Shown in pieces: positions 4,948 to 57,237 of a DNA stretch of 64,000 bases. A program made the position numbers and the translations under genes. The notes beneath the pieces were generated by a model. The model saw only the letters and a list, made by a program, of their open reading frames with translations. It made no database searches and had not been told where the DNA came from. Positions within the stretch are counted from its first letter, which is position 1; each line of letters begins with the position of its first letter. The DNA lies in the NCBI RefSeq assembly GCF_025961475.1, contig NZ_JAOQNS010000005.1, positions 310,001 to 374,000 of the forward strand, given 5' to 3'. The stretch is from Rhodobium gokarnense (GTDB lineage: Bacteria > Pseudomonadota > Alphaproteobacteria > Rhizobiales > Rhodobiaceae).

Positions 4948-5997
4948 CTAATTCTTTGCAAACGATATCTTGAACCCCTGCTGTTTGGGATAGGCTAGCC
5001 CAAACCCATTCGAAAGCGCTAGCTTTTCGTCTTCTTCGTTAGGCTTCCGCTCTAATACGATAAGTAACTTTGGCTTTGTAGCACTTTTTATCCTCTTCAC
5101 TTTTGCCATTTCTCTTTGACAATAATCTAGAAGCTGACCCATCGCGGTCCTGATCGCAAATCGCACTTGACCAATTTCACAAGGTTTAATCTCACATAAA
5201 AATAGATTCTTATTTTTGTCAATGTAACGAACGTCCACAAAATCAACATCTTCTTCTATCGATAAATTTCCCTTCTCTGCAGTCCAATTAGTAAATTTCT
5301 TTTGTAATTCGCTATGCTTTGGAGATATCAAAATTTCTTGTTCAGTAATGTACCTCCACACGGGGTCGCGGGCCGGTGATGGCGATTCAACCGGGGGAAT
5401 AAGCCCTGTATTTTCCCAAAACTCCACCAACCCATCCAATTTTGACAAAAATATTTTTACATTATTAGATAAATTCTTTTTTCGGTCCGGCGCCCACCAT
5501 GGTGTGTGCCCCATCCAACCCTTTCTTGTTCCGAGGCGAAGCGTCCGAAGCGCTGGAGGTAAAACAAATGCATTTTCGGCAGAGGCAACGGTTATAAAGC
5601 TATCTCGACCATCCAATACATGCTGTTTCGATTGGATTACTTCCTTTAAAATTTGGCGCTCTCGATATACAGTGGCATTTCTATACCATCCGACTACTCG
5701 GCGCCGTCGCTCCGTTGGATGCGTCGCCGTCCAAAAAACATCAACTCCATCTATTTTTTGAGAATCTTTTTCCGCACCAAGAAGCTCTTCAATGTTTATC
5801 CTGCGGTCTCTACCGGGAATACTAGTTTCCACATGCCCATACACATTTTTGTCGCGGGCAGAACCAAAATTGTTCACCTCGCCGCCTTCTCCGAATTCCT
5901 CTGGATAACGCCCCCCACCCTTCAATTCATCATCGCAGTTTTTCAATCCTTGGTATTTTTCCATCCAGCCAACATTGAAGAAAATGCGCTTTCGCAT
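4948..5997 (-). CDS. Probable PD-(D/E)XK-type nuclease with N-terminal WxATHP/GWYRNATVYR module
   Basis: 349 aa and clearly AT-rich in codon use against its neighbours, so probably acquired. I chose ATG 5997 because GGAG lies 9 nt upstream; a TTG at 6012 lacks such a site. N-terminal half: RIFFNVGWMEKYQG, a GGGRY segment, VDVFWTATHP and VVGWYRNATVYR, followed by a Leu-Pro-rich RTLRLGTRKGWMG segment. C-terminal half: EEDVDFVDVRY then FLCEIKP and a RxxxGQLLDYC helix, the order (acidic, D, ExK, helix with Q) expected of a restriction-like nuclease fold. From memory, similar N-terminal modules occur fused to endonuclease domains; a modified-base-reading or defence role is inference. No partner methylase is adjacent, so it stands alone. 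Confidence 0.6.
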   Translation of the reverse strand: MRKRIFFNVGWMEKYQGLKNCDDELKGGGRYPEEFGEGGEVNNFGSARDKNVYGHVETSIPGRDRRINIEELLGAEKDSQKIDGVDVFWTATHPTERRRRVVGWYRNATVYRERQILKEVIQSKQHVLDGRDSFITVASAENAFVLPPALRTLRLGTRKGWMGHTPWWAPDRKKNLSNNVKIFLSKLDGLVEFWENTGLIPPVESPSPARDPVWRYITEQEILISPKHSELQKKFTNWTAEKGNLSIEEDVDFVDVRYIDKNKNLFLCEIKPCEIGQVRFAIRTAMGQLLDYCQREMAKVKRIKSATKPKLLIVLERKPNEEDEKLALSNGFGLAYPKQQGFKISFAKN

Positions 5998-6120
5998 GTC
6001 TACGAACTCCAATCCTTGAAAATGGAAAGTTGCACAATCTTACATTTCTGGTTGAGGATAATACAGTTCCAAAACCAGATGAGGCGTTCCGCAGCCCGAC
6101 AAAACTGACACCCTCACAAA

Positions 6121-42689: not shown

Positions 42690-42842
42690 GGCACGCCGTC
42701 CCGGGCCCGCTACCGGCTGTGCGACATGGGCGTGCACGAGAACGAAAGACATTGAACGGACACAGTCGAACGCAAGACGGTTCGTTCCCGGGGGTCCCGC
42801 CGCGGTGGCGGGGTGATACAGCAGCGTGGAGGTAGAAGGTCA

Positions 42843-43253
42843 ATGTCGTCCTATCCAATTCTGGATATTGAGGGAATCGGTCCGAAATACGCTGAGAAGC
42901 TGAAGGCGGTGGGCATCCGCACCACCGGCAAGCTGCTCGATCGCGCCAAGGATCCGAAAGGCCGCAAGCAGCTCGCCGAGGACAGCGGCATCGACGAGAC
43001 CCTGATCCTGAAATGGGCCAACATGGCCGACCTCATGCGCATCAAGGGCGTTGCGGAAGAATATTCCGAACTCCTGGAAGCGGCCGGCGTCGACACGGTG
43101 AAGGAACTGAAGCACCGCAACGCCGCCAACCTCACCGCCAAGATGGCCGAGGTGAATGCAACGAAGAAGCTCGTGCGCCTGCTGCCGAGCGAAAAGAACG
43201 TCACCAAATGGATCGAGGAAGCAAAGACCCTCGATCCGATGATGACGTACTGA
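42843..43253 (+). CDS. DUF4332-family protein
   Basis: 136 aa. ATG 42843 with GGAGG upstream. Two helix-hairpin-helix-like units: DIEGIGPKYAEKLKAVGIRTTGKLL and MRIKGVAEEYSELLEAAGVDTVKEL, the DUF4332 pattern. Such tandem HhH modules suggest nucleic-acid or protein binding. Ends before a strong terminator. Confidence 0.85.
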   Translation: MSSYPILDIEGIGPKYAEKLKAVGIRTTGKLLDRAKDPKGRKQLAEDSGIDETLILKWANMADLMRIKGVAEEYSELLEAAGVDTVKELKHRNAANLTAKMAEVNATKKLVRLLPSEKNVTKWIEEAKTLDPMMTY

Positions 43254-43360
43254 ACCGTCTCATTTCCGACAGCGACCGGCTGATTGGGCGGGGACTGCGC
43301 CGCGGTCCCCCCTGCCGGTGTGCGGCCGCCTTGCGCGTGCGCTCCCGGCCGGACCTGTGG

Positions 43361-43387
43361 CCGGCGCTATCCGGCGCCGATTTTTTT
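43361..43387 (+). terminator. Intrinsic terminator after DUF4332
   Basis: GGCGC / GCGCC stem within CCGGCGCTATCCGGCGCC followed by GA and seven T. It separates the DUF4332 gene from the convergent LuxR gene; the rest of 43254-43521 holds no gene. Confidence 0.75.
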
Positions 43388-43521
43388 GCCGATTCCCGCC
43401 TGGAGCGAGGCCGAGTCGGCCTCCCGCATACGGCGTCTACAACCAAAAGTATGCATAATTGACCCATGGGGGCGGTAATCATCGCCGCACCCGATGTCGC
43501 GTGGCATGTCCGCAGGACGGA

Positions 43522-44277
43522 CTAGCTGTACTGGAAGCCGGTTCTCGGAGGCGTCTTGACCAGCGACGCGGCGAGCGAAATCTGGCCGTAGCGGATCGCC
43601 TCGACCACGGTCTGGGTCTTGTTGCGGGCGTCCAGCTTGCCGGACGCATTCTGCAGGTGGGCATGCACCGTGCGGTGCGAGATCTGCAGCATCTCGGCGA
43701 TCTCGCTGGCGGTCTTGCCGAAGGCGGTCAGCTCCACCACGCGCCGTTCCCGCGGCGACAGGCCGCCGGCCCGCTCCGCCATCATTTCGTCCATGCCCAG
43801 AAGCCGGCTAAAGGCGGCCATCGCCAGGTCGTTCACGGCGCCAAGTTCCGGACCGCCCGGACGGTGGTCGAGACCGCCCACGATGAGGACTCCCTGATAG
43901 GGATTATGGGACTGGAAAGGAACAACGATTACAGCACCTTCGGGAGATTCCGCCTGACAGAAGCGGCTCCCTTTCAGCTCCTCGTAACAGGCAAGCTCGG
44001 GGGCGATGACGAAGGGCCAGTGGGCGATCAGCGCCAGCTCCAGTGCCGGGTCGTCCGGGCGCACCTGGGGAAGCGGCATCGCCGGCTCGGTAAGGCCGGG
44101 CCAATCGGAATAAAGGATCAGCATTTCCAGGGTTCGCCCGGGCATCGGCAGCCCGGTCAGGAACATCCGCGATCCTCCAAGCGCGCGGACCGCATCGCCC
44201 AAGGCATCGAACACGGTGGCTGGATCGGTCGCGTCACGGATGGACGCCACCCGATGGTTGATATCGTCCAGTGTCAT
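43522..44277 (-). CDS. LuxR-family regulator (LuxR solo)
   Basis: 251 aa. N-terminal ligand-domain-like region (residues 1-165) and a C-terminal GerE HTH: LSPRERRVVELTAFGKTASEIAEML then SHRTVHAHLQNASGKLDARNKTQTV. The usual autoinducer-binding Trp/Tyr/Asp set is not clearly kept (DWPGLTEPAMPLPQVRPDDPALEL), so acyl-homoserine-lactone binding is uncertain. No luxI-type synthase is in the window. Divergent from mutA; ATG 44277 is preferred over an upstream ATG because of the conserved start of the domain. Confidence 0.82.
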   Translation of the reverse strand: MTLDDINHRVASIRDATDPATVFDALGDAVRALGGSRMFLTGLPMPGRTLEMLILYSDWPGLTEPAMPLPQVRPDDPALELALIAHWPFVIAPELACYEELKGSRFCQAESPEGAVIVVPFQSHNPYQGVLIVGGLDHRPGGPELGAVNDLAMAAFSRLLGMDEMMAERAGGLSPRERRVVELTAFGKTASEIAEMLQISHRTVHAHLQNASGKLDARNKTQTVVEAIRYGQISLAASLVKTPPRTGFQYS

Positions 44278-44579
44278 TTTTAGCCGGCACACTTCCTTGC
44301 AGAAGCGGCCCCTTTTCGCCGGCAAGTTGCTTCAATATCGACATTCTGTCAGTCAGATTGCGTATATGCCACTTCCTCAAAGTTGATAGTCATTGAAAAA
44401 TGGCAAAAAAAGCGACCGAGCCGGAACGTGGTTTGCGGATCGTAACGTTGCCCGCCCGCCTTTTGCCTAACTTGCGGGGTCTTGCCGCTTCTCCTAAGAA
44501 CTTCGCAAGGCCGAACCGCGCCGTCCGTTGGAGTTGAGAGCCCCGTTTGACGGGGGCCGCTGAGAAGGAATTGGTTTCC

Positions 44580-46460
44580 ATGACCTCATTCGCGCCCGAC
44601 CTGTTCCAGCCGACCGCAGACCTCAGCGAGGAGGCATGGCGGGCCGCGGTCGAAAAGGCGCTGAAGGGCGCCTCGCCGGACCGGCTTTCCTCAAGGACCG
44701 AGGACGGCATCGCCATCGATCCGCTCTACCGGCGTATTGCCGACGGCACCGCACAGGCGGCCCGGCCGGCCGGCGCCCGCTGGAAGGTCATGCAGCGCAT
44801 CGACCACCCCGATGCGGCCGACGCCAACGGCCTGGCGCTGGCCGATCTCGCCGGTGGCGCCGACGCCCTGGAACTGGTCGCGGCAGGAAGCCCCAACGCC
44901 TATGGCTACGGGCTCACCGCCCTTGGCGCCGACGACCTCGCCGCCGTCTTCAAGGACGTCTACCTGCACGGCATCCGCCTGAAGCTCTCGCCCGGCCCGC
45001 ACGGCGCGCGGCTGGCCCCGGCGATGGCCGAGGCGGCGGCAAAGCTCGGTGTCGCACCGGGCGAACTCGACGTCGATTTCGGCCTCGATCCGGTCGGCGC
45101 CCTTGCCGTCAGCGGCGGCTTGCCGGAGCCGTGGGACGCCCTGCAGACCCATACGGCCAACACCATTTCCAGGCTGCGCGAGGCGGGCTTCGCGGGCCCG
45201 TTCCTTACTGCCGACGGGCGGCCCTATCACAACGCCGGCGCCACCGAGGCCCTTGAGCTTGCCGCGGTCATCGCCACCGGCGTTGCCTATCTGAAGATGC
45301 TGGAGGCCTCCGGCGTCGACCTTGCCGATGCCGCCGGCGAGATCGGCTTCACGGTTGCCGTCGACGCCGACCAGTTCCTCGGCATCGCCAAGCTGCGCGC
45401 CCTGAGGGCGCTCTGGCGGAGTGTGACGACGGCCTGCGGCCTCGATGCGGTGCCGATGCGGGTCCATGCCGAGACCTCCTGGCGGATGATGACGGAACGC
45501 GATCCCTGGGTGAACATGCTGCGCTCCACCGTTGCCACCTTTGCCGCCGGCGTCGGCGGCGCCGACAGCGTCACGGTGCTGCCCTTCACCGCGACCCTCG
45601 GCCTTGCCGACGGCTTTGCCCGCCGGGTGGCGCGCAACACCCAGAACGTGCTCCTCGACGAATCCAACCTCTACAAGGTGACGGACCCGGGCGCCGGCTC
45701 CGGCTATGTGGAGACGCTGACGGCCGAACTCGCGACGAAGGCCTGGGCGCTGTTCCAGGAGATCGAGGCGGCCGGCGGCATCGTCGCAGCGCTGACGGCC
45801 GGCCTGCCGCAGAAGCAGGTCCGGGAGGCGAATTCGCTGCGCCAAAAGGCGATCGAGAGCCGCAAGCGGCCGATCACCGGCACCAGCGAATTCCCCAACG
45901 TGTCGGAAAAGAAGGTCAGGGTGCTGGCGGTGCCGGCCCGGCCGCTGCCCGTCTCCGGCGAGGATTCCGCGCTGAAGATCGAGGCGCTGAAGCCGATGCG
46001 GCTGGCCGAACCGTTCGAGGCGCTGCGCGACCGCGGCGACGCCATCGAAGCAAAGACCGGGTCGCGGCCGAAGGTGTTCCTCGCCAATCTCGGCAAGATC
46101 GCCGACTTCACGACGCGCTCGAGCTGGGTGAAGAACGTCTTTGAGGCAGGCGGTTTTGAGACCACCGTCAATGACGGCTTCGACGACCCGGCCGATATCG
46201 AGACCGCGTTCAAGGAGAGCGGCGCGGCGATCGCCTGCATCGCCTCCTCCGACGAGCTCTATGCCGAACTCGGGCCCGCCGCGGCCGACGCGCTGAAGTT
46301 TGCCGGCGCCACGCGGGTCTGCCTTGCCGGCAAGGCGAAAGGCATGGAAGATGCGCTGACCAATGCCGGCATCGACAGCTTCGTCTATGCCGGCTCAGAT
46401 ATCGTTCAGGAGCTTGAGGACGCCTACCGGGCGTTCGATGCGAAAGGCACGGCGCAATGA
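44580..46460 (+). CDS. mutA: Methylmalonyl-CoA mutase small (beta) subunit
   Basis: 626 aa. Pairs with mutB to isomerise (R)-methylmalonyl-CoA to succinyl-CoA. TIM-barrel features are clear (RWKVMQRIDHPD, AETSWRMMTERDPWVNMLRST, LDESNLYKVTDPGAGSGYVE), and the C-terminal flavodoxin-like domain (VFLANLGKIADFTTRSSWV) lacks the cobalamin His, as expected for the small subunit. ATG 44580. Ends overlapping the GFA gene (ATGA). Confidence 0.92.
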   Translation: MTSFAPDLFQPTADLSEEAWRAAVEKALKGASPDRLSSRTEDGIAIDPLYRRIADGTAQAARPAGARWKVMQRIDHPDAADANGLALADLAGGADALELVAAGSPNAYGYGLTALGADDLAAVFKDVYLHGIRLKLSPGPHGARLAPAMAEAAAKLGVAPGELDVDFGLDPVGALAVSGGLPEPWDALQTHTANTISRLREAGFAGPFLTADGRPYHNAGATEALELAAVIATGVAYLKMLEASGVDLADAAGEIGFTVAVDADQFLGIAKLRALRALWRSVTTACGLDAVPMRVHAETSWRMMTERDPWVNMLRSTVATFAAGVGGADSVTVLPFTATLGLADGFARRVARNTQNVLLDESNLYKVTDPGAGSGYVETLTAELATKAWALFQEIEAAGGIVAALTAGLPQKQVREANSLRQKAIESRKRPITGTSEFPNVSEKKVRVLAVPARPLPVSGEDSALKIEALKPMRLAEPFEALRDRGDAIEAKTGSRPKVFLANLGKIADFTTRSSWVKNVFEAGGFETTVNDGFDDPADIETAFKESGAAIACIASSDELYAELGPAAADALKFAGATRVCLAGKAKGMEDALTNAGIDSFVYAGSDIVQELEDAYRAFDAKGTAQ

Positions 46461-46956
46461 GCGAGGACAGGACCCCGGTGCTGACCGGCGGCTGCCAGTG
46501 CGGCGCGGTCCGCTATGCGCTCTACGCGCCGCCCGAGGACGTGCATATCTGCCATTGCCGGATGTGCCAGAAGGCGGTCGGCGGGCCGTTCGCACCGCTG
46601 GCGCCTGTCCGAAAGGGCGACTTCCAGTGGACCCGCGGCTCGCCCGGCGCGTTCCGCTCCTCGACCATCGCGGAGCGCCATTTCTGCCGCGACTGCGGCA
46701 CGCCGCTGACCTTCCACTACGTCAACAGCGACTGGATCGACGTCACCATCGGCAGCCTCGACGCACCTGAAGAGGCGCCGCCTGCAAACCAGTACGGCAT
46801 CGAGGGCCGGCTTTCCTGGTTCGCCGGCCTTCACGCCCTGCCCGGCGAGGAGACGTCCCTTCCGGCCGCCCAGAAGCGCCGGATCGCCTCGTTCCAGCAC
46901 CCCGACCACGACACCCCACCGGACTGGAGACCGCCGCAAACGGCGACAGAAATGCC

Positions 46957-46960
<4 letters not shown>
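46457..46960 (+). CDS. GFA-family (CENP-V/GFA) zinc protein between mutA and mutB
   Basis: 167 aa. Zinc ligands [22 protein letters not shown] and [12 protein letters not shown] in the GFA order. Overlaps mutA and mutB by four bases at each end (ATGA junctions), so the three genes are translated as one unit. The family includes the glutathione-dependent formaldehyde-activating enzyme but most members are unassigned; its place in the operon suggests a role connected with CoA thioester or aldehyde metabolism. Confidence 0.87.
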
Positions 46961-49116
<2,156 letters not shown>

Positions 49117-49150
49117 GCCCTTCCCGCGCCGTCCGACCGACCCGACCCGG

Positions 49151-49182
49151 AATACCGGCGCTGCCCGCGCGGCACCGGTATT
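49151..49182. terminator. Inverted repeat after mutB
   Basis: AATACCGG / CCGGTATT arms with a GC-rich inner stem; about 35 bp past the mutB stop. There is no T-run, so it is either a weak terminator or an mRNA-end stabiliser. Confidence 0.5.
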
Positions 49183-49395
49183 ACGGCGCTATTGCAGAGT
49201 CCTTTTTAGCATTGGGCCGCCGGGGAAAGCGCGCCCGATGGCATTTCCGCGAACAGAACGATCGCTCCACTCGGAAAAGTAAGCGCTCGGGCGCGAATTC
49301 AACGCGCGGACACACCAAACCTTAATCTTCATCGGCGACGATCCCGCGAAAGACTACAGACCCAATCAAGTTAGTCATGGGAAGGTGCGTACCTG

Positions 49396-50880
49396 ATGCT
49401 GAAGCTGCTGAAACAGCGGATCCCCGACACCCCTGCGCCCGAGGCGGCCGACGAGATGGAGGCCGCCGAGGCGGTTGCCGCGCTGGCCGAGACCGATGCG
49501 GTCAACGAGATGCGCAAGGCGCTGTCGGAGATCGCCCGGGACCTCGGCGCGCTCGGCCTTACCATTGCCGATGCCACCGGCGTCGTGGAAGACAGCAGCT
49601 CATCGGCGCACCAGCTCGCCGACACCTTCGACGAGCTTTCGGCCGCCTCCAGCGAGGTGCGCGCCACCAACGAATCCATCTCGCAGTCCTGCGGCGAAAC
49701 GGTCTCGGCGACGGCAACCGCCGGCGAGGCCGTCCGCGGCTCGCGCCAGACGCTTGAGACGGCGCTGTCGCGGATCGAGGGCCTGATCGGCGCCGTCGGC
49801 AACATCAACGAACAGCTCCAGGGCCTGCAGTCGGCGCTCGGCAGCGTGCGCGAGGTGGCCGACGCCATCGACGCCATCGCCCGCCAGACCAACCTCCTTG
49901 CCCTCAACGCCACCATCGAGGCCGCGCGCGCCGGAGAGGCCGGCAAGGGCTTTGCCGTCGTCGCCTCGGAGGTCAAGGCGCTCGCCGGTGAGACCAGTTC
50001 GGCGACCGAGCAGATCGCCTCGACCCTTTCGGAACTCGACAGCGAGGCCGACAAGCTCGTGCTGCTCGGCAACCAGGCGATCGAATATACCGGCGAGGTC
50101 AATGAGAGCGCAGGGTCGCTCGACGCCTCCATGGCCGAGATCGAGCGGTCCATCGAGGAGATCGAGGTCTCGTCGCGGGCGATCGAGGAAAGCGTTGCCG
50201 GCAACGAGGAGCGGCTCTCCCATTTCGGCGAGCGGATCGATGCCATGCATGCCGCGCTCGATGCCAATGTCTCGCAGCTCGGCACCTGCGCCGGCGAGAT
50301 GTTCGGCGCGCTCTATTCCACCGACAAGATGGTCGGCCTCGCCGCCACCAGCGGCATCGAGACCGGCGACACCAAGTTCGTGAAGATCATCCTGGAGATG
50401 GCCGACGAGGTCACCCGCCGCTTCGAGGAGGCGATCGTGGGCGGCCAGATCCGCGAGGCCGAGCTCTTCGACTATTCCTACGAGCCGATCCCGGGCACCG
50501 ACCCTCAGCAGGTGATGGCGAAGTTCACCCCCCTCACCGACCGGCTCCTGCCGGACCTGCAGGAAGCCATCCTGGAGCGGGACAAGAACATCGTCTTTTG
50601 CGCCGCCATCGACATCAACGGCTACCTGCCGACCCACAACAAGAAGTTCTCAAAGCCCCAGGGCGACGACCCCGTCTGGAACGCCGCCAACTGCCGCAAC
50701 CGCCGCATCTTCAACGACCGGGTGGGCCTTGCCGCCGGCCAGAACACCAAGAAATTCCTCCTCCAGACCTACCGCCGCGACATGGGCGGCGGCAAGTTCG
50801 TGCTGATGAAGGATATCTCCGCGCCGGTGCACATCGCCGGCCGGCACTGGGGCGGCGTGCGGATGGGGTATAAGGCTTAA
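49396..50880 (+). CDS. Soluble methyl-accepting chemotaxis protein with C-terminal sensor
   Basis: 494 aa, no membrane segment. The signalling domain comes first (coiled coil from about residue 40, with the conserved tip [25 protein letters not shown]) and a C-terminal sensory domain follows ([45 protein letters not shown]), the dCache-like C-terminal module also found in other alphaproteobacterial MCPs. The order is reversed relative to classical chemoreceptors. Cytosolic signal unknown. ATG 49396. Confidence 0.85.
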
Positions 50881-51213
50881 GGGTTCGTTGCCGCGGCCCC
50901 ATCCCATGCGGCGGGCGGCATCATGAATTACCTTAGTTCTTGGCCGCGGTCGTCTCCGCTCCTAAGGCTTGTTCCTAGACCACACTGCACTGGAGTGGGG
51001 AAGCAACGGCGCGATCGATGACGAGATCTGAAACGGGTAGACGGGATGTACTGCGACACCCAATCCCGGTCAAAAACCCGAACAGAAACGAATACTACTA
51101 TCTCCGAACCCCGACATCTTCTGCCGAATCTCGGGCCAAGGCTCTATGAAAGGAACTAGAATTCGTATATCGGTTGTTATCTTCACATCTCTCTATCTTT
51201 AGGGGTATCCGCC
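50881..51213. other. Intergenic region, GC-rich to AT-rich transition
   Basis: 333 bp. GC-rich at the left, then falling toward AT-rich just before the ATG at 51214, marking the left border of the second AT-rich island. AGGGG precedes the ATG. No gene found. Confidence 0.4.
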
Positions 51214-52671
51214 ATGAGAGTGACCTTAACAATCACAATTTTGGTTTGGTGTTACCTCGGCAGTCTGAATTTCTCGCATTCGGCAGATTTTTCCTGCAAC
51301 ACCACACTCAGTCCGGCCAACGACGATCCGTCTTCGTCCAATGAGTGCCTGCAGGAATTGGATCGATGCACTTATCGGGCAAGCATTGGATCGATCTTCA
51401 AACCTATTTATTTGATTTTTTATGATAACAAATTGGTTTGCGGAGGAGACCCCTATGGCCGATTGCGCATTGAAGGGCACAATTATGAGCAAGGCAAGAT
51501 TGATATAGCCGTCCTAGAAAAAATAGGTGGGAATGACTATTTTGAGGAAAATGAGAAGCGAAAAGTTATTTATCGTGGGGCACTGACGAAACGAATTACC
51601 AAGGAGCTTATTATTTGGGAGGGTTATGTTCGAACACCAGACGGCTCCGAGCAACAATCCGCGTACATTAAGCGAAACCGAGAATTCAGAAATATTTTTG
51701 CCAACAAATTCGAATCTCCACCTTTCGGCGTATGGGATAAAGAGCTAATTGCGCAAGTGGAAAATTCAGATCTTGAAGATGGATATATTTATTCCTCCAA
51801 AGAATTGCATGGTGCATACTACTGTGGAGATGGCGGATGTGAAGCTGAAGGAATTGGCGTTATTGTAAGAAAAGATGAGATCGATCATTTCCTTGCGCGT
51901 TTAAAAAAGTCGGGATTACAGTATTTGAGTGTCAAATTTTCTACCGATGACGACAGACTTTTTTGTTATATATCATCATATGGATCCCAAATATACGAAC
52001 GGATTGCAAAAACACTTGGAATAGAAGATGAACAAGATTTTTACGATGAAACTAACCCTGAAGCTGCAAAAGCTGCGAAAAGCCTAAAAGATGAATTTAT
52101 TTGCATACATGTAAATGCTGTTCCACTGCATGAACCACACGTGACCATGTCCTTACGCAAATTTCCAGAAGTTTATGCTGCTAGGAGATTGGGTGGAGGA
52201 GCTGGAGCTGATGCGATATCGTTTTTTGTTAATGGTCAAACTTTTTTGAGGGATTCAAATTCACTCAACTTTGGGCGAGCTATTGAGGTGTTCGGATCTG
52301 CATTGGGCACATACTACCCCAGCTCTTCAAATTATGATATTTCCGACCCCTTTGTTCGAAATAATTCTATTTTTTGGAATGTTAAGGGGCGGCGTGTGGC
52401 CTTAGAAAAAAGGAGAAATTTTAGCGTAGCCGAGGCGGCAGAATGGTGGAAGTTAAGGATCCAACTTTTTATCGCTCAAAAGAATTTCCAAGAGTACGTG
52501 TTGGTACTGAATCTACCCGAAACACGTGTCACTAATTGGGGTTTCGATTCATTTCCCGTTGATGAAAAATTTGAAAAAGAACTAACGAATGATCCCAGAT
52601 TTCTTGATTTTCGAGATCGCCTGATTGGGGTGTTGACGAAGGAAATCAACGATCCGGTGTTCATCCCATGA
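51214..52671 (+). CDS. AT-rich-island exported protein of unknown function
   Basis: 485 aa with a signal peptide (TLTITILVWCYLGSLNFSHSA). AT-rich codon use, so probably acquired. Visible features: paired Cys (CNTT, NECLQ, RCTY; YYCGDGGCEA), a D/E-rich centre, RRLGGGAGADAISFFVNG and AEAAEWWKLRIQLFIAQKN, but no known domain. Overlaps the next gene by ATGA. I recognise no homologue. Confidence 0.65.
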   Translation: MRVTLTITILVWCYLGSLNFSHSADFSCNTTLSPANDDPSSSNECLQELDRCTYRASIGSIFKPIYLIFYDNKLVCGGDPYGRLRIEGHNYEQGKIDIAVLEKIGGNDYFEENEKRKVIYRGALTKRITKELIIWEGYVRTPDGSEQQSAYIKRNREFRNIFANKFESPPFGVWDKELIAQVENSDLEDGYIYSSKELHGAYYCGDGGCEAEGIGVIVRKDEIDHFLARLKKSGLQYLSVKFSTDDDRLFCYISSYGSQIYERIAKTLGIEDEQDFYDETNPEAAKAAKSLKDEFICIHVNAVPLHEPHVTMSLRKFPEVYAARRLGGGAGADAISFFVNGQTFLRDSNSLNFGRAIEVFGSALGTYYPSSSNYDISDPFVRNNSIFWNVKGRRVALEKRRNFSVAEAAEWWKLRIQLFIAQKNFQEYVLVLNLPETRVTNWGFDSFPVDEKFEKELTNDPRFLDFRDRLIGVLTKEINDPVFIP

Positions 52672-53120
52672 AAATGCACCGGAACAAATTTAAGCTCGAA
52701 GCTAGTATTACAATTGTGCTGTCGCACGTTGTAATATTTTTCATCGCCATAATATTCCAAGCGAAATATGGATTCGGCGAACGCAGCGCTTTTGACGTCA
52801 TGTCGGCCACTATTCCACTATTTGGCTTATTTTTGTCAATTATCATAAAAGATACTATTTCCGGACAATTTGATCTATCGTCTGGCAAAATTATTACCCC
52901 ACAAATGGTTTGGATTACTAGAATTATTCTTGGATCTTACGTAATCGCTTGCTTGTTAACGTTTTTACTATTTGGGATTCAGAGTATAAAAACACCAGAT
53001 GAGTTGACAAGTTGGATCGCATCTATTGAGTCCGCTCTTGGCGTTTCACTTGCTATGCTTGTTGATAGCTTGTTCGGTGGAGACCAGAGAAAGAACGATA
53101 ACGTTAAAATTGACATCTAG
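52668..53120 (+). CDS. Four-helix membrane protein coupled to the exported protein
   Basis: 150 aa. Four hydrophobic segments (about 12-32, 44-62, 84-104, 124-138) with a short basic start (MKMHRNKFKLEA) and a KNDNVKIDI tail. AT-rich like its partner and translationally coupled by ATGA. Could be a membrane anchor or channel for the exported protein; function unknown. Confidence 0.65.
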   Translation: MKMHRNKFKLEASITIVLSHVVIFFIAIIFQAKYGFGERSAFDVMSATIPLFGLFLSIIIKDTISGQFDLSSGKIITPQMVWITRIILGSYVIACLLTFLLFGIQSIKTPDELTSWIASIESALGVSLAMLVDSLFGGDQRKNDNVKIDI

Positions 53121-53420
53121 TATGGAATATTTTTTATACCTCTTTTCAATTGGAGAATTGTTTCATCGAAAAGAAAAGCACACGCATACTTTGAACCAAT
53201 TTCAGTTGTACCTTGGCGTTTGACCTGCCTACCGGAGCGGTGACATCTCACGATACCGGTAAGTCTCATCAATGCGATTCCGCTGTCGTGATCTCGTCGA
53301 AGAGAGCGCTCGTACGCCACTTCGGCCCGACAGAAACGTATGCGATAAAAGCGCAAGACGGGCAGCGCTTTCGCGCCGCCCGCCGTCGTATCGATCCGCA
53401 AAATGAAGGACCGCCCGCCC

Positions 53421-54629
53421 CTACTTCCCCATGCAATTGGCGTAGTACGTCACCGTCGCCGGCCAGTCGGAGAAGATGCCTTCGATGCCGACGTCCTCAG
53501 AAAGGACGTTGAGCAGCTCGTAGATGCGGCCGTCGGACTTGGTGATGTCGTTGATCGGGGTGTAGTACCAGCCGCCGCCGGTCTTCAGGGGGCCGGAGCG
53601 CTCAAGGGTCCAGGTGATGATCTTGAGGCCGGCGTCCTTGGCCGCCTTGGCGTAGGCGGAGGCGGCGATTTTGTCGCCGTCGGCGGTGACCAGCATGTTC
53701 ATGGACGGGGCGAGGTAGTTGACGCCCTCAGCCTTCAGAGCCTTGAAGTCTTCCTTCCAGGTCTTGGAATCCTGCTCGTCGAAGCCGTCGCCCCATTCGA
53801 CCAGATAGACGGCCTGCTTGCCGAACTCCGGCTCGGCCTTGATCCAGTAGAGGACGTCGTCGAGGTTGAAGGACTGGGCAAAGACGTCGGACGGGTCGAC
53901 GCCGGCCGCCTTGTACTCGTCGATCATCTTCTGGGCGTAGTCTTCCTGGGAAAAGCCGTCAAACGGCATCTCGACGGCGGGCGACTTCAGCTCCGGGGTG
54001 AACTTGACGCCGAGTTCCTTGAAGAGCGCGATCGATTCCGCGTGGGTCATGACGGTGCCGGCGGATTCCGCATAAAGGTCGGTGCGCCAGTTGGCGGTGC
54101 CGTCCATATAGGCGTCCACCGTTGTCGCGGTCTTGTCGGCGGCGTCCATCTTGCCCTTCAGGCTCTTGAACTCGGCGAGCGTGATGTCGCTGGTGCGGCA
54201 TTCGGCGCTCGCCTCGGTCTCGCCCTCGGCCGGCGAAAACGCCTTGGTGCAGTTGGCGGCAAGGTCTGTGCCGAGGATGTTGGTGGTGGTGTGCAGGTCG
54301 TTCTGGGCGTGGCGGCAGACGAGCTCCTTGTCCTTCGTAAAGGTCACGTCGCATTCGACGATGCCGGCGCCCATGCGGGCCGCCGCGATGTAGGACTCGC
54401 GGGTGTGCTCCGGGAACATCATCGCCGCGCCGCGGTGGCCGATGGAAAAGGCGCTCGGGGCCATCTCCTTGTCGGCGCAGGCGGCGAGCTTGTCCTTCAG
54501 CGCGCCGTCCGTCATCTGATCGATGAGGAAAAAGGGGCGCGGGCCGAGTTCGACCGGCTGGGCAATCGCAGCGGACGCAAATGTCGCCGCGGCGGCGGTC
54601 ATCAGGAGGGTCTTCCAGGTCGTGGTCAT
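53421..54629 (-). CDS. Periplasmic glycerophosphodiester phosphodiesterase
   Basis: 402 aa with a signal peptide ([17 protein letters not shown]). Hydrolyses glycerophosphodiesters to glycerol-3-phosphate and alcohol. Motifs: [15 protein letters not shown] with the catalytic His pair, [28 protein letters not shown], and [11 protein letters not shown] near the end. ATG 54629 used. Resembles GlpQ but longer; the extra mid-domain (residues ~140-220) is typical of a subgroup. Probably phosphate-regulated, not shown here. The AT-rich island ends in the 53121-53420 gap, which holds no gene. Confidence 0.85.
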
Positions 54630-54781
54630 CGGGGTATCCCTGAAATGGCGGTGGGGCCTGAATGGCATCTATAGGGCGGCGGGATGAAACCAGAGCCCGG
54701 TAACGGAGCCGTGTCAGGTCGATGACGTTCCGGTTACGCCGGGCCCGCTGCGACGGCCTGGCGCAGACCAGGTGGGGGTCT

Positions 54782-55051
54782 TCAATTCAACACGATCTGG
54801 CCGTCGACGCAGTGCCAGCTTCCCGGCGCGATCAGGCGCTTGTGGGCATAGCGCACCGAATGCAGCGCGCCTTCCAGGCTGGTGCGCCAGAACTCCAGGA
54901 AGCCGTGCATCTCCGGAAAGTCCGGCGCCAGGTCGTAGTCCTGCCAGACATAGCTCTGCAGCAGCGCCGGGTAGTCCGGCATCCGGTAGAGGATGTGGGC
55001 GGTCGTCAGCCCGTAGCCCTTTAGCTGGCGTTCCAGATCGGTTTGGCCCAT
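54782..55051 (-). CDS. usg: Usg family protein
   Basis: 89 aa from ATG 55051 with GGAG upstream. ERQLKGYGLTTAHILYRMPDYPALLQSYVWQDYDLAPDFPEM is the Usg hallmark (broken here: QLKGYGLTTAHILYRMPDYP). Small soluble protein, common in Hyphomicrobiales; function not established. Usual length. Confidence 0.88.
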   Translation of the reverse strand: MGQTDLERQLKGYGLTTAHILYRMPDYPALLQSYVWQDYDLAPDFPEMHGFLEFWRTSLEGALHSVRYAHKRLIAPGSWHCVDGQIVLN

Positions 55052-55348
55052 CGGACACTCCCTTTGCCACAAAAGCGGCTCCAAGCGTGCCCCGGAAAAA
55101 CGCGCCGTGGCAACCCCCGACCTCGCCGATATCACAATGTTGTCAATTTGTTAGCAGCATAGTCATTTGAGTGCTGTCGGCCGCCGCGGGTAGGATTTCG
55201 CCTTCGCCGGGCCAGCGCACACCGCACCGGGGCGCCGCGACAACGATGCCGGCGCTTGCCCTTGGCGCCGATCTCGCCTATCCGACTAGGCGTCCGGGCC
55301 TTCGGGGGCCTTGCGGCCGGTGCCGCAGCAGTCAGGAGTCTTTGCCAG

Positions 55349-55999
55349 ATGGTTCGCGTCCGCGGCCGGTTCATCCTTTCCCTTTCCTTCGCCCTCGGCC
55401 TTGCCGCCTGCAGCGGCGCCACCCCGCCGGAAGGCATCGGCCCGATCGGCGGCGACGTTCCGGACAACGCCTTTTCGGAAACCAACCCCTATACCGGCGC
55501 CGGCTACGACACGCCGCTGCCGACGCCGATCATGCAGTTCACGGCAACGACCGCCGGCCCGCTCGGCACCGATCCCGCCTATTCGAGCCGGGAACTGCAG
55601 GCAAAACTGCCCGGCTTCGAGACCGCGACCGCAGAGACCGCGCGCGAGAACGGCGTCGCCAACACGCTCGTTGCGCTCCATGACGGCCAGCAGGTGCTGC
55701 AGCTCTTCAAGGGCTCGGGCGGCAAGGTCTCCGAAATCCATGCCGCCAGCGGCGTCGTTGCCGGGCCCGCGGGCGAACAGGTCGGCATGACCTTCCGCCA
55801 GGCCGGCATGAGCCGGTCGAGCTGCCGGGTCGGCCGCAACCTCTGGCGCGGCATGGCGGTGTGCCCGTCGAAGGGCGCAAAGAACGTCACCCTCGTCTTT
55901 GCCCTTCCCGGCTATCGCGGCCCGTTCGACCGCATGCCGCCGGAGGGCAAGATCGGCGATGCCGTCCTGCAGCGCTTCGTGTGGACCCCGACCAGCTAG
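55349..55999 (+). CDS. DUF1131-family lipoprotein
   Basis: 216 aa. ATG 55349 with GGAG upstream. Signal peptide with lipobox GLAACSG, then acidic linker, and the DUF1131 core (LVALHDGQQVLQLFKGSGGKVSEIHAASGVVAGP, MSRSSCRVGRN, GAKNVTLVFALPGYRGP). Two conserved Cys in the last half. Eleven bases before meaB, probably cotranscribed. Function unknown. Confidence 0.82.
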   Translation: MVRVRGRFILSLSFALGLAACSGATPPEGIGPIGGDVPDNAFSETNPYTGAGYDTPLPTPIMQFTATTAGPLGTDPAYSSRELQAKLPGFETATAETARENGVANTLVALHDGQQVLQLFKGSGGKVSEIHAASGVVAGPAGEQVGMTFRQAGMSRSSCRVGRNLWRGMAVCPSKGAKNVTLVFALPGYRGPFDRMPPEGKIGDAVLQRFVWTPTS

Positions 56000-56010
56000 C
56001 AAAGGTTCCC

Positions 56011-57018
56011 ATGGCCGACCCCGCGCCCGCAAAGCCGATGGACGGCACCGATATCGACGCCATGGCCGAGCGGCTGCGCGCCGGCGACCGGGCCGCGCTC
56101 GCCCGCGCCATCACGCTCGTGGAATCGCGCCGCCAGGACCACCAGCAGCGCGCCCATGCGCTGCTGCAGGCCGTGCTGCCGGACACCGGCAAGGCGTTCC
56201 GGGTCGGCATCACCGGCGTTCCGGGCGTCGGCAAGTCGACCACCATCGACATGCTCGGCGCCAATCTGACGGCCGCCGGCCGCAAGGTGGCGGTGCTCGC
56301 GGTCGATCCCTCCTCCACCCGCAGCGGCGGCTCGATCCTCGGCGACAAGACGCGGATGGCCCGGCTCGCGGTCGACCCCGACGCCTTCATCCGCCCCTCC
56401 CCCTCCGCCGGCACGCTCGGCGGCGTCGCCGCCAAGACGCGGGAATCGATGCTCCTTTGCGAAGCCGCAGGCTTCGACGTGGTGCTGGTGGAGACCGTCG
56501 GCATCGGCCAGTCGGAGACGGCGGTTTCCGAAATGGTCGACTTCTTCCTCGTCCTGATGCTGCCGGGGGCCGGCGACGAACTCCAGGGCATCAAGAAGGG
56601 GATTCTCGAAATCGCCGACATGATCGCCGTCAACAAGGCCGACGGCGAGGGCAGGAAACGGGCGGAGGCGGCCGCCGCCGACTACCGGGCAGCCCTCAAC
56701 ATCCTCGCCCCGCGCGACCCGAACTGGACGCCGCCGGTGATCACCGTCTCCGGGCGTGCCAACGAAAATCTCGACGGCCTGTGGCAGCAGATCGAAACCC
56801 ACCGGGAAAAGATGACGAGGCTCGGCACCTTCCAGGACCGGCGCCGGACCCAGCAGGTGAGCTGGATGTGGTCGATGCTGGAAGACCGCATGATGGCCTC
56901 GCTGAAAAACAATCCGGCAACCGCGGAGCGGCTGCCGGAGCTGGAAAAGGCGGTGCGCGAGGGAAAGGTCTCGGCGAGCTTTGCGGTGGATGAGATCAGC
57001 GGCCTGATGAAGCTTTAG
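56011..57018 (+). CDS. meaB: MeaB GTPase chaperone of methylmalonyl-CoA mutase
   Basis: 335 aa. Walker A GVPGVGKST (69-77), the DPSSTRSGGSILGDKTRM switch region, ETVGIGQSE, and NKADGEG. MeaB binds the mutase to gate adenosylcobalamin loading and protect it from inactivation. ATG 56011. It lies about 7 kb from mutAB, separated by the chemoreceptor, the AT-rich island, GDPD and Usg, but in the same direction. Confidence 0.93.
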   Translation: MADPAPAKPMDGTDIDAMAERLRAGDRAALARAITLVESRRQDHQQRAHALLQAVLPDTGKAFRVGITGVPGVGKSTTIDMLGANLTAAGRKVAVLAVDPSSTRSGGSILGDKTRMARLAVDPDAFIRPSPSAGTLGGVAAKTRESMLLCEAAGFDVVLVETVGIGQSETAVSEMVDFFLVLMLPGAGDELQGIKKGILEIADMIAVNKADGEGRKRAEAAAADYRAALNILAPRDPNWTPPVITVSGRANENLDGLWQQIETHREKMTRLGTFQDRRRTQQVSWMWSMLEDRMMASLKNNPATAERLPELEKAVREGKVSASFAVDEISGLMKL

Positions 57019-57100
57019 GTTTTCGCTCACGGGGTTTGTTTTCGCTCACGCCAGGCTCGCTATCGCTCGCGGCTCCGCGGTGGCGGCGCATAAGCGCCGG

Positions 57101-57237
57101 CGGCCGGTCGGCCTTGCGAGCCCTGCGGGCTCGGTTTCTATGTCTCGCGGCCGGGCGTTCGCTAACGCTCACTGGCCTCCGACGGGGCCTCGCATTCGCT
57201 CGGGCGGCCGGTCGGCCTTGCGAGCCCTGCGGGCTCG
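57101..57237. repeat. Short direct repeat pair
   Basis: CGGCCGGTCGGCCTTGCGAG and the following CCCTGCGGGCTCG occur at 57101-57133 and 57205-57237, separated by Ser-Leu-type low-complexity sequence (CGCTCAC). Part of the gene-free region 57019-57946. Confidence 0.8.

Follow-up and report, generated by a model that had tools for sequence, protein, structure and literature searches.

An AT-rich pair of orphan genes at a variable chromosomal spot in Rhodobium gokarnense, a candidate lineage-restricted envelope module

A GC-rich stretch of the Rhodobium gokarnense genome (contig NZ_JAOQNS010000005.1, positions 310,001 to 374,000; hereafter the window, 64,000 nucleotides long) contains two adjoining genes of very different base composition, which raises the question of where such a pair came from and what its products might do. 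ORF1 (51214–52671, forward strand, ATG start) encodes 485 amino acids and ORF2 (52668–53120, forward strand, ATG start) encodes 150; the stop codon of the first and the start codon of the second overlap as ATGA. Their GC content is 38–42%, against about 67% for the region. In 500-base windows, GC content is 0.38–0.44 inside the island (51250–53249) and 0.61–0.73 around it (46.25–50.75 kb and 53.25–60 kb). By codon position, GC is 0.49/0.38/0.38 in ORF1 and 0.40/0.34/0.40 in ORF2, and at third positions it is 0.87–0.91 in the five genes adjoining the island. The AT-rich pair is most likely foreign, acquired DNA.

A second AT-rich dip lies elsewhere in the window (4948–6012, reverse strand), where two 500-base blocks have 39.6% and 47.2% GC. 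It holds a lone ORF of 354 amino acids, listed with a TTG start, for which Pfam gave nothing at E 1. Close to the C-terminus, one stretch (VDVRYIDKNKNLFLCEIKP) has what we take to be a resemblance to the core of PD-(D/E)XK nucleases, and the ORF is likely another acquired gene.

Chance is excluded as the origin of ORF1, because none of 1000 Markov shuffles of the island gave a frame reaching 485 codons, the longest stop-free frame being 248. The length of ORF2 is not significant alone, as a frame of at least 150 codons appears in 126 of 1000 shuffled islands. Period-3 power exceeds that of all 500 shuffles in both genes (z 12.2 for ORF1, 5.7 for ORF2), and it does not do so at the edges of the island (50886–51213 and 53121–53352). 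Periodicity, the overlap with ORF1, and the hydrophobic segments described below together make ORF2 likely to be a gene. A Shine-Dalgarno-like AGGGG lies 8 nt upstream of the ORF1 ATG. Pattern scans found promoter-like sites without excess (5 against 5.3 expected, for the one sigma type scanned) and no terminator-like sites (0 against 2.6 expected), and an Rfam search of 50000–54500 gave no match. Two AT-rich genes coupled by ATGA had been described in a first-pass annotation of this DNA, and the coordinates, the low GC, and the periodicity all bear that description out.

The island is bordered on the left by a gene for a methyl-accepting chemotaxis signalling protein (MCP; 49396–50880, forward strand; PF00015, E 5.4e-27) and on the right by a convergent gene for a glycerophosphodiester phosphodiesterase (GDPD; 53421–54668, reverse strand; PF03009, E 7e-25). 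We compared this site in three genomes of the genus, namely that of R. gokarnense, a close sister (G002), and a more distant congener (G001). The MCP protein is 96% identical in G002 and 56% identical in G001; the GDPD protein is 94% identical in G002 and has no match in G001 at E 0.001. Aligned by blastn, the window and G002 are colinear on both sides of the island, at 91.3% over 42694–50885 and 89.4% over 53353–57223. On the left, homology extends five bases past the MCP stop codon; on the right it picks up again 68 bases short of the point where the convergent GDPD gene has its 3′ end. The intervening DNA of the window is a variable segment (50886–53352, no strand assigned) of 2467 bp and 42.9% GC that is not common to G002, where 1275 bp of 51.2% GC are found instead. 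No significant match links the two inserts (best 13 nt, E 0.11). Because the inserts are unrelated and their flanks are about 90% identical, the two sister species carry different, unrelated foreign genes at one and the same position. G001 also has its MCP gene, followed by other DNA of 60.9% GC (not markedly AT-rich) in which lie a gene of the YbjQ family and an ORF of 160 amino acids that has no Pfam match, before the part that carries DUF1131 and meaB. The ORF1–ORF2 pair was found in neither congener. Conserved flanks that enclose different content in relatives, by which hotspots of horizontal gene transfer (HGT) are recognized, are thus seen in G002, and G001 has other content again. Judged from one close and one distant sequence comparison, the spot between MCP and GDPD is one of gene turnover.

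The right edge of the segment carries a GC-rich inverted repeat (53353–53385) that is largely kept in G002; by eye it looks like the terminator of the GDPD gene, and it is absent from the pattern-scan list.

This layout revises part of the earlier reading, in which the pair separated mutAB from meaB and had probably inserted into an older mut region. The names mutAB and meaB are ones we assume by recognition, rather than from a profile scan of those proteins. The MCP and GDPD genes, along with a Usg-like gene and a DUF1131 gene, also lie between them, and since G002 and G001 both keep mutAB and meaB apart without the pair, the island did not split them. What stands of that proposal is the acquired cargo, at a site that carries different genes in different species.

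The cargo of G002 is essentially one gene, P0003, on the strand opposite to that of the pair. As listed it encodes 380 amino acids; a later start is likely, because none of its matches starts before residue 35. For P0003, Pfam gave nothing above cut-off, PADLOC nothing at E up to 10, and the phage records nothing at E 0.01; among its relatives are 10 plasmid records from Lactobacillaceae (best E 1e-10). Within the order, 2 of 150 genomes match, one being G002 and the other a partial, stop-containing match. A further relative, 68% identical in its best segment, occurs in one IMG/VR contig (L036:3803-5990) after a Phage_integrase gene. From these sequence relatives, P0003 is a member of a mobile cargo family. 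A Toprim-domain protein is also encoded near the IMG/VR relative.

Another element shared by these genomes is a dispersed GC-rich repeat of about 95 bp, present in two copies at 57038–57237. With 40 candidates scored per genome, it has at least 56 matches at E ≤1e-8 in the R. gokarnense genome, at least 46 in G002, and at least 5 in G001. In G002, one copy (94%) directly follows the MCP stop, at the left border of the cargo.

How the pair entered the spot is suggested mainly by the neighborhood. There is no tRNA gene in the 64,000-nt window. The other ORFs of at least 80 amino acids between the flanks are two antisense and two short end frames, with no evident recombinase in the ORF list. Weak repeats flank the genes, one direct (12 nt, 51082/53330) and one inverted (20 nt, 75%, 51009/53290), leaving some room for an element with short ends. 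With neither a recombinase gene nor a tRNA in view, and with no convincing repeat at the ends, entry probably took place by recombination in the flanking genes. A study of HGT hotspots describes many chromosomal hotspots without mobile-element genes as exchanging their content in this way (PMC5635113). The spot resembles hotspot cargo in its fixed flanks, its differing foreign genes in sister species, and the lack of a visible recombinase; a population-scale definition calls for many gene families at one spot across a population, and three genomes were compared here.

Searches for homologues of the two proteins gave a consistently sparse picture. Matches in Pfam, NCBIfam, PHROGs, and PADLOC were listed to E 10, with weak ones above about 0.1 mostly filtered out. 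For ORF1 the best Pfam match is GalA_N (E 0.13), under the curated cut-off; for ORF2 it is DUF2231 (PF09990, E 0.029), also under its cut-off. DUF2231 comprises predicted membrane proteins and aligns weakly and nearly full-length with ORF2 residues 16–139. We rejected the assignment, since its 14.9 bits lie below the 26.4-bit cut-off and probably reflect shared hydrophobicity only. NCBIfam gave nothing for ORF1 and one match for ORF2 (E 0.24), the best PHROGs matches (E 0.021 and 0.012, respectively) are both to families of unknown function, and PADLOC gave no family for either protein at E up to 10. Searched by sequence, the PDB returned one match for ORF1 (E 0.27) and three for ORF2 (E 0.46–0.55). 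By tblastn, ORF1 has no match among plasmid records at E 10, and the best 20 of 80 matching phage records fall at E 1 to 8; ORF2 has one plasmid match (E 7) and no phage match. A plasmid search with the DNA of 50600–53700 hit 13 records, and among the 8 listed only parts of the flanking MCP or GDPD genes match. No relative of either protein turned up when peptide patterns were scanned against 84,980 species genomes and IMG/VR, an approach that detects close relatives only and may leave out records near the source genome.

Six-frame searches of genome sets, which may overlap, place ORF1 in its own genome alone among 101 relatives (1/101) and among 398 genomes of the phylum (1/398). Among 385 genomes of the class, 11 match, these being its own genome and ten others at E 0.0019–0.096 per genome. 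We took the ten as chance matches, since their E-values are at the level expected for that many genomes. Seven of them, covering 33–103 query residues, were re-scored with phmmer against the ORFs of their loci and reach 5.9 to 16.9 bits. Six of the seven clear phmmer's inclusion threshold (E 3.5e-5 to 0.0045), but in so small a set, pre-selected from 385 genomes, that carries little weight. One weak match (L004) lies in a frame that we take to be peptide deformylase. For ORF2, 21 of the 385 class genomes match at E ≤0.1, its own included (best other E 0.003), as do 2 of 150 relatives at E ≤0.01, again with its own included, the other being a 317-residue frame in G017 (E 0.003). These non-self matches are short, at 22–47% identity, and were set aside.

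One phage candidate for ORF1 received closer scrutiny. Residues 30–100 match phrog_12338 (E 0.021), and the same residues align with a hypothetical protein of an rV5-like phage at 25 of 71 identical positions. As a single pairwise comparison, the latter scores E 2e-7 and better than 2000 shuffles of the phage protein. We took it as most likely due to chance, the phage protein having been selected out of a collection of 2.3 billion bases in which its E is about 1. There is no other aligned stretch of note, and, unlike ORF1, the phage protein has by eye no leader. Since the same ORF1 stretch is matched, our guess is that phrog_12338 and the phage protein belong to one family. The first-pass annotation recognized no family for the pair, and this impression holds: apart from chance-level matches, the searches place the pair in its own genome alone, and on sequence comparison ORF1 and ORF2 are two orphan proteins without a convincing homologue in the sets searched.

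The proteins themselves give some indication of where they would act. ORF1 is probably exported by the Sec pathway, with a predicted leader of about residues 1–23, a call made by eye. Its N-terminus consists of Met-Arg, an uncharged hydrophobic stretch, and then a small-residue region. The n-region has a single charged residue, no 11-mer in the protein is more hydrophobic than the one beginning at residue 3, and no lipobox is seen by eye in the leader. Past the leader are 462 amino acids with 8 cysteines. ORF2 is probably a four-helix membrane protein with both termini inside and short outer loops. Its hydropathy segments (12–30, 42–60, 83–101, 117–135) parallel the helices of an AlphaFold model (3–34, 38–66, 78–106, 110–137; a low-confidence model, mean pLDDT 59.3), and loop charges, read by eye, would put both termini and the middle loop on the cytosolic side. 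Four hydrophobic segments occur in 0 of 2000 random proteins of island base composition and in 8 of 2000 of ORF2's own base composition. The helix count adds little over amino-acid composition, because 126 of 2000 residue shuffles have four or five such segments. The short outer loops leave little surface for an exported partner. The leader, the 8 cysteines, and the four hydrophobic segments agree with the original description of an exported, cysteine-containing protein beside a four-helix membrane protein. The profile and structure searches that had been proposed yielded no convincing family for either. The AlphaFold model of ORF1 is unusable (mean pLDDT 35.8), and the low-confidence ORF2 model has no fold match in the PDB (2 matches, best E 7.2).

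We favor, with a probability of roughly 60%, the reading that the pair is a lineage-restricted accessory envelope module, acquired as cargo in the turnover spot between MCP and GDPD. In such a module Sec would carry ORF1 into the periplasm or further out, and disulfides would stabilize it; ORF2, made from the same message, would be its inner-membrane partner, serving either as an anchor for ORF1 or as the receiver of its signal, and together they may provide a niche-specific envelope function. An ordinary accessory role in the envelope, in transport, adhesion, or a stress response and with no antagonism, is quite possible though short of probable. A single small operon with a leader, cysteines, and a membrane partner fits it, and nothing suggests conflict, but no substrate, pathway, or family match ties the genes to such a role. 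The genes might instead be decaying or unexpressed passenger DNA, intact only through recent acquisition. The lack of excess promoter-like sites, the absence of terminator-like sites, and the lack of homologues that would show selection are compatible with that view, which the two intact frames with coding periodicity and the site upstream of ORF1 make unlikely; the promoter scan, moreover, covered one sigma type.

Protection from phage or from a competitor, the two taken jointly, is a tentative option, and we regard a role in transport, adhesion, or stress as about as likely. In an envelope phage defence, periplasmic ORF1 would sense or block phage DNA entry or lysis and ORF2 would act in the membrane. 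Membrane effectors are common in defence, and the other known occupant of the spot, P0003, comes from a mobile family; yet ORF1, ORF2, and P0003 all lack a PADLOC match, the five neighboring genes scanned with Pfam include no phage or defence gene, and we know of no defence role for P0003, so we consider this version rather unlikely. Kiwa-type pairs join a membrane protein to a partner in phage defence. ORF2 is similar in being a small membrane protein of four helices with a partner gene alongside, but neither protein matches PADLOC and the partner here bears an export leader. The first-pass annotation had named a toxin/immunity pair, a defence system, or a surface system as options; in the first of these, ORF1 could be a secreted antibacterial toxin and ORF2 the membrane immunity protein that shields its producer. 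The order of the genes, with a leader-bearing product first and a small multi-helix membrane protein second, the stop/start overlap, and the variable spot fit this, but no toxin, bacteriocin, or immunity family is among the Pfam, NCBIfam, PHROGs, and PADLOC matches listed, and on sequence grounds we find it distinctly improbable. Phrased more broadly, as a two-protein envelope conflict system in which an exported disulfide protein works with a four-helix membrane protein, be it effector or immunity factor, and neither protein family has detectable relatives, the idea is rather unlikely.

The pair combines something new with something familiar: the orphan proteins are new, and their setting is of a known kind, that of fairly ordinary acquired cargo. 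If they do form a defence or antagonism module, they would add two new protein families to the envelope conflict systems. The turnover spot between MCP and GDPD is, in turn, a place in which to seek more cargo in this genus.
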